A DNA stretch of 43,407 nt from Oxalobacteraceae bacterium (GTDB lineage Bacteria; Pseudomonadota; Gammaproteobacteria; Burkholderiales; Burkholderiaceae_D). Each line of letters begins with the position of its first letter. Positions within the stretch are counted from its first letter, which is position 1. Location: contig JAHFQV010000025.1 of NCBI GenBank assembly GCA_023259175.1, positions 1 through 43,407 of the forward strand, in the 5' to 3' direction. Position numbers and translations under genes: made by a program. Below the pieces are notes generated by a model. That model was not told where the DNA came from. It did not search any database and worked only from the letters and a program-made list of their open reading frames with translations. Below, piece after piece: positions 283 to 11,325 of the stretch.

Positions 283-528
283 CTATCGACCGCCTAAGGG
301 GTCGGTAGGTGTAATGGCCCGTGGCATGGTATTGATGTCGTCACCCGAAACGGTTTTTACATCATTTGATTTGCGTGGTTTTTTTTGCGGAATCATACTT
401 CCAGTTGTATAGCGTTGTTCAACAGCCACCTTGGGTTCGTTACTATCAGCAACTTCAATGCTGCTACAGGCACTCAATAGTGAAGTTAAAAAGAGAGCGG
501 CTAGGACACTAATTTGTTTTATTCTCAT
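283..528 (-). CDS. Small lipoprotein, function unknown
   Basis: An 81-residue protein with a type II signal peptide: short MRIK n-region, hydrophobic core, and lipobox LLSAC with the lipidated cysteine at residue 21. The mature part is short, polar and proline-rich (GSMIPQKKPRK, then MPRAITPTDPLGGR) and probably disordered. I chose ATG 528 because it gives a compact signal peptide and has AGAGA about seven bases upstream. A longer frame reaches 582 but would bury the signal. It stands alone with its own terminator at 61-103. A strong promoter overlapped by BlaI/MecI-like dyads lies 70-120 bases upstream. I do not recognise a function. Confidence 0.75.
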   Translation of the reverse strand: MRIKQISVLAALFLTSLLSACSSIEVADSNEPKVAVEQRYTTGSMIPQKKPRKSNDVKTVSGDDINTMPRAITPTDPLGGR

Positions 529-597: not shown

Positions 598-647
598 TTT
601 TACACATGTAGTACGACAACTGTAGTATCAAGTGAGATGCTTGTCAA
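598..647 (-). promoter_or_regulatory. Promoter with overlapping BlaI/MecI-type tandem operator
   Basis: On the minus strand TTGACA (642-647) is separated by 17 bases from TACAGT (619-624), a near-consensus sigma-70 promoter reading toward the lipoprotein gene at 528. Two related 16-bp boxes, 598-613 and 612-627, cover the -10 and start-site region with a 14-bp offset, each ending TGTAGTA. The first has the perfect TACAnnTGTA core (601-610). The second has GACAnnTGTA (615-624). TACA/TGTA dyads over the -10 and start site are the known architecture of BlaI/MecI/CopY repressor operators. The regulator itself is not in the window. Confidence 0.55.
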
Positions 648-827: not shown

Positions 828-2714
828 TTATTTCCATTCACCTCGCAAAACCTGCACATAGTCGCGTAAGCTCTCGGGACTGACGGTATCTGGCGTTTGA
901 GGTGTTCCTACCGCAAGCTCTAGCCGGGAGAATGGCCCGCGCTTAAATGAGCGATGAAAAGGGTTTGTAATATCGCGTGAGAGCAAACTACCCCATAGAC
1001 CACGTAAAGCCATAGGAATGACGGGTACTGGAGAGCGTTCGAGGATTTTCATGATCCCGCCTTTAAATTCATTGATTTCACCGTCTCGGGTTAACCGCCC
1101 TTCTGGAAAAATACAGACCAAATCGCCTTCATGCAAAGCTTGCGCAATATCGACGAAAGCTTTTTCCATGAGCCAAGGATCCTCTTTTGCCGAGGCGATA
1201 GGAATTGCTTTCGCAGTCCTAAATATCCAAGAAAGGAAAGGAATCTTAAAAATACGATGATCCATGACAAAACGTATCGGGCGTGGACTCATCCCCATAA
1301 TGACAATCGCATCCATGTAACTCACATGATTACACACTAAAACGGCAGCGCCTTCTTTGGGGATATTGCCGAGCTCAATACCGCGTACTCGATACACCGT
1401 GTGTATCAATAGCCAAGCAATAAAGCGCATTAAAAACTCGGGCACCACACTGAAAATGTATAAGGCGACGATGGCATTCATGATCGCGGTCGCCATAAAA
1501 ATTTGCGGGATCGTAAATTTAAAATGCAGCATCACGACCCCGACCATCGTTGCGAGCACCATGAACAAAGCGTTCATGATATTCATGCCTGCAATGGTGC
1601 GTGATAAATGTTGTGGGTCGCTACGCGTTTGAATCAAAGCGAACAGCGGCACGATGTAGAGTCCACCAAAAATACCGATCATAAAAATATCAAACAAGAT
1701 TTTATAGCTGCCGACTTGGTCGATAAAACCCATCGCCGCGACCTGGTTGAGGTTGGTGTACGTTAAGCTAGACAGATAGAGATCAAAGCCAAAAATCGAC
1801 AAGCCAATGGCACCAAACGGCACCAATCCAATTTCAACTTTGTGGCCAGATAGGCGTTCACACAATAAGGAACCGGCCCCGATGCCGAAAGAAAAAACTG
1901 TTAGGAGCAAAACAAAAACACTATGATCGCCATGCAAATAAACTTTAGCGTATTGTGGAAACTGCGCCAATAAAATCGCACCGAAAAACCAAAACCAGGA
2001 GTTGGCCAACAGAGATAAGAAGACGGGCCGGTTTTTTTTGCTAAAACTGATATTGCGCACCGTCTCGCTAGCGGCATTCCAGTTAATCACCAGATCAGGG
2101 GCAGGCGCAGGCGAATACGGCACACGCAGCGTAAATAACCAGCCCAGCAAAGCGATTAAAATCGTGCCGACCGCAATGAGTTCCACGCCCCAAGGCTTGT
2201 GTACGACTAGCATTGCGCCTAGGATTTCACCCAATAAAATTCCAACAAAGGTCCCCATTTCAATGACACCATTGCCACCCACCAGTTCATCTGAATTAAG
2301 GTGCTGCGGCAAATATGCATACTTAACAGGCCCGAACAAAGTTGAGTGAATCCCCATCCCAGCCACTGCTGCGACTAAGAGCCAGAGATGATGGCCTAAC
2401 CAACCAATCGCAGCAACGCACATAATCGCAATTTCTAGCAATTTGACATAGCGGGCAACTCGCCCTTTTTCAAATTTATCCGCCAATTGACCCGAGGTCG
2501 CGGAAAACAAAACATAGGGCAAAATAAAAAGCCCAGGAATTAAATTATTGAGTAAGTCAATGTTGATGGTGGTCCACGACAGCGCGTCGTAAGTCAGTAC
2601 GGTAAGTAGCGCGGTCTTAAATACATTGTCATTGAATGCGCCTAAAAATTGCGCCCAAAAAAATGGCGCAAAGCGACGTTCTTTTAATAGAGAAAATTGG
2701 CTATGCTGACTCAT
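828..2714 (-). CDS. LplT-like MFS transporter fused to PlsC-type acyltransferase
   Basis: A 628-residue inner-membrane protein. Residues about 10-430 form a major-facilitator domain (GAFNDNVFKTALLTV near residue 25, many helices) like LplT, the lysophospholipid flippase. Residues about 440-625 are a PlsC acyltransferase with the catalytic NHVSYMD block (462-468) and FPEGR (536-540). The expected role is to flip lysophospholipid inward and reacylate it. E. coli Aas also has an acyl-ACP synthetase domain, which is absent here. It lies 74 bases downstream of lolD on the same strand. A weak hairpin (804-820) follows the stop, with a T-run nine bases later on the minus strand. Confidence 0.85.
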   Translation of the reverse strand: MSQHSQFSLLKERRFAPFFWAQFLGAFNDNVFKTALLTVLTYDALSWTTINIDLLNNLIPGLFILPYVLFSATSGQLADKFEKGRVARYVKLLEIAIMCVAAIGWLGHHLWLLVAAVAGMGIHSTLFGPVKYAYLPQHLNSDELVGGNGVIEMGTFVGILLGEILGAMLVVHKPWGVELIAVGTILIALLGWLFTLRVPYSPAPAPDLVINWNAASETVRNISFSKKNRPVFLSLLANSWFWFFGAILLAQFPQYAKVYLHGDHSVFVLLLTVFSFGIGAGSLLCERLSGHKVEIGLVPFGAIGLSIFGFDLYLSSLTYTNLNQVAAMGFIDQVGSYKILFDIFMIGIFGGLYIVPLFALIQTRSDPQHLSRTIAGMNIMNALFMVLATMVGVVMLHFKFTIPQIFMATAIMNAIVALYIFSVVPEFLMRFIAWLLIHTVYRVRGIELGNIPKEGAAVLVCNHVSYMDAIVIMGMSPRPIRFVMDHRIFKIPFLSWIFRTAKAIPIASAKEDPWLMEKAFVDIAQALHEGDLVCIFPEGRLTRDGEINEFKGGIMKILERSPVPVIPMALRGLWGSLLSRDITNPFHRSFKRGPFSRLELAVGTPQTPDTVSPESLRDYVQVLRGEWK

Positions 2715-2788: not shown

Positions 2789-3499
2789 TTAGACAGTAGA
2801 CTCGGCAACCAAACCTTTTTCAGTTAAGCGCAGCACGCGATCACAACGTTTCGCGAGTGCTGCATCATGGGTGACGATGACAAACGCAGTTTTCGAGGTC
2901 TTAGCCAATTCCAGCATCAAGGCAAAAATTTGATCAGCAATACCGCGGTCGAGGTTGCCCGTCGGTTCGTCAGCCAGAACACAGGCAGGATTTGTCACCA
3001 AAGCACGCGCCAAAGCGACCCGTTGTCTTTCACCGCCCGATAGCTCGCCCGGCACATGACTGATGCGATGTTCCATGCCGACCTTGGTCAGCATTTCGCG
3101 CGCCAAGCTCTGTGCTTCACTACGCTTCATACGACGAATCAGCAGCGGCATAGCGACATTGTCGAGCGCAGAAAATTCGGGTAGGAGATGATGAAATTGG
3201 TAAACGAAACCCAGGGATTGGTTACGTAAATCCCCTCTCGCCCGCTCGCCTAGATCAGCAAAATCCTTGCTCAGCAATTGAACCTCACCATTGGTTGGTG
3301 TATCGAGCCCACCCAAAAGATGTAGTAAGGTCGATTTACCGGAGCCTGAAGCGCCCACGATGGCAATGCGCTCGCCAGCGGAAATCGAAAAATTAATACT
3401 ATGGAGGACACGCACTGCAGTCTCGCCAAGGCCAAAAGTTTTGGATAGATTTTTACAGCTTAAAACTCTTTGCATGGATTTTTCTTGAAAATTATTCAT
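2789..3499 (-). CDS. lolD: Lipoprotein-releasing system ATPase LolD
   Basis: ATPase of the LolCDE-type transporter, which extracts outer-membrane lipoproteins from the inner membrane and passes them to LolA. The 236 residues carry Walker [10 protein letters not shown] (49-57), signature LSGGERQ (153-159) and Walker B with [11 protein letters not shown] (174-184), followed by an H-loop in IVTHD. ATG 3499 overlaps the end of lolC (ATGAATAA) and has GGAGG about ten bases upstream. A second ATG at 3475 would remove eight residues and is nearer the family's usual start, but its Shine-Dalgarno is weaker. Translation is coupled to lolC. Confidence 0.95.
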
Positions 3500-4751
3500 A
3501 ACGTAAAGCCTCCGCGGGATTTACGCGAGCCGCACGCAAGCTAGGATAGATCGTCGATAAAAATGCCATGATCAATGCGATTCCACCAATACTATAGACA
3601 TCATCCCAATGCAAGTCAGAAGGGACGGTACTGATCACGTACACTTCCTTTGCTAAAAATTGAATTCCTAATGCCCTCTCAATAAGTGGAACAATCACGT
3701 CAATATTAAGTGCCGTCACTGTGCCAAAAAATACGCCGAGCGCCGTTCCCATAAATGCGACGATTCCACCTTGAACTAAAAATATTTTCATTATCGATAG
3801 CGGAGATGCGCCCAAGGTTCTTAAAATCGCGATGTCCGCTTGCTTTTCTGAAACCGTCACAATCAAACTCGAAATTAGGTTGAAAGAAGCGACCAAAATA
3901 ATTAAAGCCAAAATAATAAACATCATGATTTTTTCAGTTTTTACTGCAGCAAAATAACTATTGTTTTGCTGCGACCAATCGCGTGAAATTAAATTGCCCC
4001 CCAAAGTACGGCTCAATTCATACGCCACTTGCGGCGCTTGCAGCATGTCTTTGACTTTGAGTCGTATCCCAGTCGGTGCGTCTTGGCGGAAGAATTTTTC
4101 AGCGTCACTTAGATGAATAAACGCCATCGCAGAATCAAATTCATAGTGTCCCGCTTCAAATACAGCGACAACCGTAAACGCTTTTAAGCGTGGCAAGGTT
4201 CCTGCTGGGGTGATCTGCCCCTCCGCAGCGGCAAGCGTGACTTTGTCACCAATGCCTATATGCATCGCCCGCGCCAAATCAATGCCCAAAATAATATTGA
4301 AAGCCCCTGCTTTCAAATCATCTAAATGCCCCGCTTTGACCTTGGTCGCGACGATGGAAACTTTGGGCTCTTCTTCAGGCAAAATACCGCGCAAAATCGC
4401 ACCACGCATGATGCCGTCGTTAATTATCATGGCTTGCGCATCGACATAGGGCGCCGCACCCAGAACTGCGGAATGTTTTTGCACTTCCTTTGCGGTCGCT
4501 TGCCAGTCGGGAATTTGACCGCTGGCATCAAAGACCTCTATGTGCGGCAATACCGACAACATACGATCACGCACCTCCTTCTGAAAGCCATTCATGACCG
4601 ATAAAACGATAATTAAGGTAGCCACCCCTAAGGCGATACCCGCCATCGAAATAAGTGAAATAAAAGAGATGAAACTATTACGGCCACTACGTCGTCCCGC
4701 GCGGGTGTAGCGCAAACCAACGAGCCATTCAAACGAAATATTTTTCAGCAA
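3492..4751 (-). CDS. lolC: Lipoprotein-releasing system permease LolC/LolE
   Basis: A 419-residue permease with one N-terminal membrane helix (about 30-55), a large periplasmic MacB-like region, and three C-terminal helices (about 275-400) ending in [16 protein letters not shown], typical of LolC/E. Only one permease gene is present, as in organisms where a single LolF-like protein forms a homodimer with LolD. The start is TTG at 4751 with AGGG upstream. No ATG precedes the conserved [13 protein letters not shown] segment, so the non-ATG start seems real. It is divergent from the 4902 gene across 150 bases. Confidence 0.92.
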
Positions 4752-11223: not shown

Positions 11224-11325
11224 ACCACAGGATTTTTGAATAAACGACTTATTTTTCAAAGACATAAGCGCTAAATTTAGCAAGAACGCAGGCGTGATTC
11301 AGGCATTTCCGGTACAATCGCGGAC

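Follow-up and report, generated by a model that had tools for sequence, protein, structure and literature searches.

A pair of TACAnnTGTA-type boxes on the promoter of a small lipoprotein gene is very likely the operator of a BlaI/MecI-family repressor, here called C92 BlaI, which would control both its own blaI-M56 operon and this unlinked lipoprotein. The boxes lie in a 43,407-nucleotide stretch of DNA from an Oxalobacteraceae bacterium, referred to throughout, at its full length, as the window. Judged from sequence, the same promoter-operator layout is common to blaI-like genes and the lipoprotein gene in several species. As both promoters share one double repressor site, the lipoprotein and the C92 membrane-sensor system are very probably induced together.

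The genome that contains the window has four BlaI-M56 pairs, and here one operator points to an unlinked target. We know of no account of what BlaI-M56 pairs outside the classical resistance systems sense, or of which genes they control. A precise operator names an unlinked target, and the question of the signal therefore becomes testable for a defined lipoprotein. No title on this system was found in the literature, where it may nonetheless have been published, and the accessible portions of PMC12578637 and PMC10754441 hold no passage bearing on it.

Results

Promoter and boxes in the window

The preliminary description reported a TTGACA-17-TACAGT promoter directed toward an 81-residue lipoprotein and overlaid by two boxes 14 bp apart, and the sequence confirms it (Table 1). 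On the minus strand TTGACA (647-642) is followed by a 17-bp spacer and by TACAGT (624-619), and the promoter points into the 81-codon gene. A TACAnnTGTA dyad on the promoter is a trait of BlaI/MecI-type operators and is present here, as two boxes of that type in tandem; the core of box 1, TACAGTTGTC (624-615, minus strand), has one mismatch to TACAnnTGTA. The single TACANNTGTA word is not unusual: at up to one mismatch the window has 5, fewer than the 8.92 expected, and 91 of 100 shuffles reach 5. It is the two boxes in tandem, at their fixed spacing, that rise above chance.

Table 1. Features of the lipoprotein promoter and its surroundings in the window
Feature	Position	Strand	Remarks
-35 element TTGACA	642..647	-	From sequence; recurs at 17-bp spacing in 3 operator-bearing lipoprotein promoters
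-10 element TACAGT	619..624	-	Within predicted operator box 1
Predicted operator box 1, ACTACAGTTGTCG	614..626	-	Overlaps the -10 element; 0 mismatches to ACTACANNTGTNG
Predicted operator box 2, TACATGTGTA	601..610	-	Perfect; around the predicted start site
Predicted tandem operator, 27 bp	601..627	-	0 mismatches to the tandem pattern
TGSxIP-type lipoprotein gene	283..528	-	CDS 528-283; 81 residues, lipobox LSAC
Presumed LplT/Aas-like fusion	828..2714	-	MFS transporter and acyltransferase domains; conserved upstream neighbour of the lipoprotein

Conservation of the boxes at lipoprotein promoters

Matches to the lipoprotein occur in 10 of the 43 genus genomes. Close lipoproteins (58-61% identity) are present in five genomes besides the window's own, namely G307, G132, G209, G165 and G176; four weaker matches (G309, G085, G218 and G198; 38-49%, partial length, E 4e-4 to 8e-4) were excluded from the counts. 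The preliminary description had looked to conservation of the boxes upstream of orthologues, and this was seen in part. The lipoprotein promoters of three species, G000 (the window's genome), G307 and G176, read TACTACAGTTGTCGTACTACANNTGTA, and any two of them agree at 25-26 of the operator's 27 positions. The other half of the six close lipoproteins, those of G132, G209 and G165, keep TTGACA and lack the boxes.

This division follows gene position. The boxes are found in 3/3 lipoprotein genes beside lplT/aas (the window's own included) and in 0/3 close homologues sited elsewhere; the boxless proteins are ~60% identical and occupy a different chromosomal position, and the LplT/Aas-like fusion adjoins the lipoprotein in all three operator-bearing genomes. 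Small TGSxIP lipoproteins occur more widely in this bacterial family, other genera having homologues whose motifs are of the TGSx(I/L)P type. When ~500 bp upstream of 22 lipoprotein loci were scanned, boxes appeared only at L043, L047 and L064 (the last, of 35,611 bases, is the G307 locus and was counted once); among the loci scanned, the boxes are confined to the G000, G176 and G307 copies, beside lplT/aas.

Outside the operator, gapped alignment gives the flanks 40-52% identity, no higher than in their shuffled versions (means of 45-47%); ungapped flank identities (20-33%) understate the similarity and were replaced by this gapped test, which left the conclusion unchanged. The spacer is mostly intermediate (33-60% identical over 15 positions, ungapped), and the distance from operator to start codon varies among the three promoters (98, 185 and 136 bp). 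An inverted repeat at 593-603/611-621 of the window was considered and set aside; by eye, the promoters of G307 and G176 lack it.

BlaI-family repressors of the genome

A search of the genome (4.03 Mb, 233 contigs) for BlaI-family regulators and M56 peptidases, as the preliminary description had proposed, found four of each, with an M56 gene adjoining every BlaI-family gene; the four repressors are named here after their contigs, C92, C216, C88 and C50. C92 BlaI matches PF03965 (Penicillinase_R) with 103.6 bits and MecI (1sd6) over its full length (E 1.3e-14). Its promoter, TTGACA-17-TACATTCTTAATACTACAGATGTAG, carries a double box like that of the lipoprotein promoter, with a degenerate first box (3 mismatches). 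The BlaI/MecI-type layout originally proposed for the window is thus matched at the promoter of a probable cognate repressor. Among the matches listed, ACTACANNTGTNG occurs at 0 mismatches in two places of the genome, one in the window and the other at the C92 blaI promoter. At up to one mismatch the genome has 110 matches to it, fewer than the 288 to the reversed control, and single boxes with a mismatch are therefore not enriched.

The remaining blaI promoters differ. That of C216 carries another box pair, ATTACAnnTGTAAT, 23 bp apart, and a search of the 600 bp preceding the C88 and the C50 blaI gene found no box at up to one mismatch. Directly upstream of the C216 blaI start near 11229 (L010) are two perfect 14-bp palindromes, ATTACACGTGTAAT and ATTACAGGTGTAAT; with these palindromes, the C216 blaI-M56 pair probably forms a BlaI regulon of its own in this genome. 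By eye, repeats of a GATCTAGATC-like word take the place of TACA/TGTA boxes in the C88 blaI promoter (L003), and the DNA specificity of C88 BlaI is perhaps different. Near C92 blaI, two single GCTACATTTGT(T/A)G boxes lie between MATE and amylase genes (L009 9656-9741); we do not claim them as further targets, as by rough arithmetic ~4 such 12-mers are expected.

In a repressor tree of 14 rows, drawn without C88 and C50 BlaI, a 12-member group separates from MecI and C216 BlaI (96/92). Since 8/11 inner branches are open, the tree does not settle orthology inside this group.

The tandem operator in related genomes

The box was also sought elsewhere, as had been suggested at the outset, and in addition to the C92 blaI promoter the scans recovered the tandem arrangement in relatives. 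Across 392 family genomes, 17 rows at 14 distinct places matched the tandem pattern with no more than 2 mismatches, with 0 control hits; these places are 11 blaI-like promoters and 3 lipoprotein promoters, window included. Across the 43 genus genomes, a related tandem pattern at up to 3 mismatches gave 24 rows at 13 distinct places in 7 genomes, with 6 control hits; at 12 of these 13 the match lies on a promoter of the C92 repressor group or of the lipoprotein. A match in G282 (3 mismatches), between two unrelated ORFs that by eye we take to be a GTPase and truB, was regarded as chance. Recovery of known sites was expected, because these same sites had served to build the patterns; the informative part is that no other place matched and that the sole match outside the genus, in G177, is a blaI-M56 promoter. 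At the G307 C19 blaI promoter the tandem is weaker, with 4 mismatches.

The geometry TTGAC[AT]-17-TACA[GT]T, scanned with at least five of the six letters of TTGACA required, was found at 13 of 17 loci; it is missing at the three lipoproteins without boxes and at G176c, where the blaI promoter has an 18-bp spacer. Under the same letter requirement, the -35 element of 10 blaI promoters is TTGACA in 6 and TTGACT in 4.

Repressors of the C92 group (48-78%) are present in G307 (2), G176 (3), G295 (2), G209 (2) and G165 (1), the next best matches being at most 30%. Close lipoproteins occur in 6 of the 43 genus genomes, the C92 BlaI group in 6 and both in 5 (Fisher p 3.7e-5, in a test that ignores relatedness and leaves out the four weaker lipoprotein matches). 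G132 has the lipoprotein without a C92-group repressor; its other BlaI-family matches reach 26% identity at best, and the tandem-pattern scan of the genus genomes found no operator match in it. G295, a genome 73% complete, has the repressor and no lipoprotein match.

M56 partners and a third operon gene

Each of the 12 members of the repressor group has an adjoining M56 gene (10 by Pfam, two by alignment). The C92 partner matches PF05569 with an intact HExxH motif (HEIAH), and alignment shows the motif kept in the M56 partners. The proposal in the preliminary description that the operator responds to cell-wall stress through a BlaR1-type sensor is unsupported: Pfam found no penicillin-binding or transpeptidase domain in 10 M56 partners, that of C92 and 9 relatives (E limits of 0.1, 0.01 and 0.001). 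Sel1 repeats were found in 6 of these 10, above the Pfam cut-off in G307 C7, G307 C19 and G176c and below it in G176 at 921 kb, G176b and G209b; Pfam found none in the C92 protein, G209a, G295a and G177.

In the accessible part of PMC3305447 the BlaI cleavage site is given as an Asn-Phe pair, N101-F102. The pair is not kept here, aligning with His-Leu in 11 of the 12 group members and with Tyr-Leu in G177, and repressor cleavage at that bond is therefore not assured.

In four of six operons examined, the product of the third gene is similar to the periplasmic region of M56 proteins (E 5.9e-47 to 3.7e-5, the best decoy reaching 0.021; E 8.5e-16 for the copy in the window's genome). The protein has a hydrophobic N-terminus by eye, and the gene at L009 4806-5579 and its equivalents in L097, L098 and L099 encode two conserved cysteines. 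The G209 and G295 operons have at this place a gene for another small, lipoprotein-like protein.

Discussion

From what is established for BlaI/MecI systems, BlaI dimers, probably one per box, would cover the -10 element and the start site, and bound BlaI would block RNA polymerase at both promoters. An envelope signal would activate the M56 membrane protein, leading to inactivation of the repressor, and the blaI-M56 operon and the lipoprotein would then be turned on together. The lipoprotein may be an effector or a feedback part of that envelope response.

Assignment of the operator to C92 BlaI has to be weighed against the three of six close lipoproteins without an operator, two of which come from genomes (G209 and G165) that have a C92-group repressor. 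There is a small chance that the operator is served by a BlaI-family repressor of this genome other than C92 BlaI, or by several of the four in cross-talk, given that all four are of one family, that the TACA/TGTA core is also found in the C216 boxes, and that cross-species binding is reported within the CopY family in the section of PMC7253601 consulted. The same section describes the 10-base core as necessary but insufficient for CopY, and here the surrounding features discriminate: the window flanks (ACTACA...TGTAG, as opposed to ATTACA...TGTAAT) and the spacing of 14 rather than 23 bp fit the C92 promoter, not that of C216. Moreover, G132 has other BlaI-family matches, yet neither a C92-group repressor nor an operator match.

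Two further explanations are much less probable than a different BlaI. In one, a CopY-like repressor of the same superfamily would place the lipoprotein under metal-type control, not that of a membrane sensor. According to the available text of PMC7253601, boxes of the CopY/CopR copper repressors have the TACANNTGTA core, often as two operators per promoter, and CopY binds metal at a C-terminal Cys-X-Cys motif. Here, unlike CopY/CopR, an M56 gene adjoins all 12 group members examined and the alignment of these members shows no C-terminal Cys-X-Cys in any of them, which makes metal control very unlikely. In the other, least credible of all, a -10 region would contain TACA and TGTA words by coincidence and the lipoprotein would be free of BlaI control. 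The commonness of the single word in the window and the boxless lipoproteins lend this some support, but a chance match was rejected on the 14 tandem places, all of them blaI or lipoprotein promoters, against 0 control hits, and the 27-bp footprint is conserved amid flanks no more similar than shuffled DNA.

With C92 BlaI as the preferred repressor, the system would be a variant of known BlaI/MecI-type control. It resembles BlaI-BlaR1 and MecI-MecR1 of Staphylococcus and Bacillus licheniformis in a repressor homologous to MecI over its full length, an adjoining M56 gene with HExxH, an operator on the repressor's own promoter and the TACA/TGTA core. It differs from them in that the boxes are only 14 bp apart, the Asn-Phe cleavage pair is absent and the host is Gram-negative. 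It differs also in the target, a small lipoprotein in place of a beta-lactamase or PBP, and in the sensor, no transpeptidase-type domain having been detected by Pfam in the 10 M56 partners. This points to an M56 protease module that can be paired with sensors other than a penicillin-binding one. More speculatively, we may be dealing with a Gram-negative, non-beta-lactam branch of BlaI-BlaR systems, consisting of a two-cysteine (in many relatives, Sel1-repeat) M56 sensor, a probably exported operon paralogue of its periplasmic part and an unlinked co-regulated lipoprotein; these could close a loop that senses the envelope, with either the paralogue or the lipoprotein setting or resetting the sensor, a tentative picture that we consider possible rather than probable.

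Searches of Pfam, NCBIfam and PDB gave no function for the lipoprotein, the best PDB match (E 0.0011) being to the signal-peptide region of TrwH. A resemblance of TGSxIP to the start of TonB-receptor plugs (TGSxI) was rejected, with a best E of 0.084 that is not significant, in a test (29 receptors, 290 shuffles, 128 decoys) whose top three matches were receptors at the TGSxI place. Besides the fusion at 828..2714, which we take to be LplT/Aas, the neighbours in the window are presumably a LolCE-like permease (3492-4751) and a LolD-like ATPase (2789-3499), named from the domains found. LolCE and LolD act in lipoprotein sorting and LplT/Aas in lysophospholipid recycling, so an envelope role for the lipoprotein is plausible. 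The window has no PF00144-like gene at a place where G176 has a beta-lactamase-family serine hydrolase of that family (L111 1786-3435), between lolD and lplT/aas and two genes before the lipoprotein; by eye, G307 has an ORF of similar appearance ahead of aas (L107 8563-9570).
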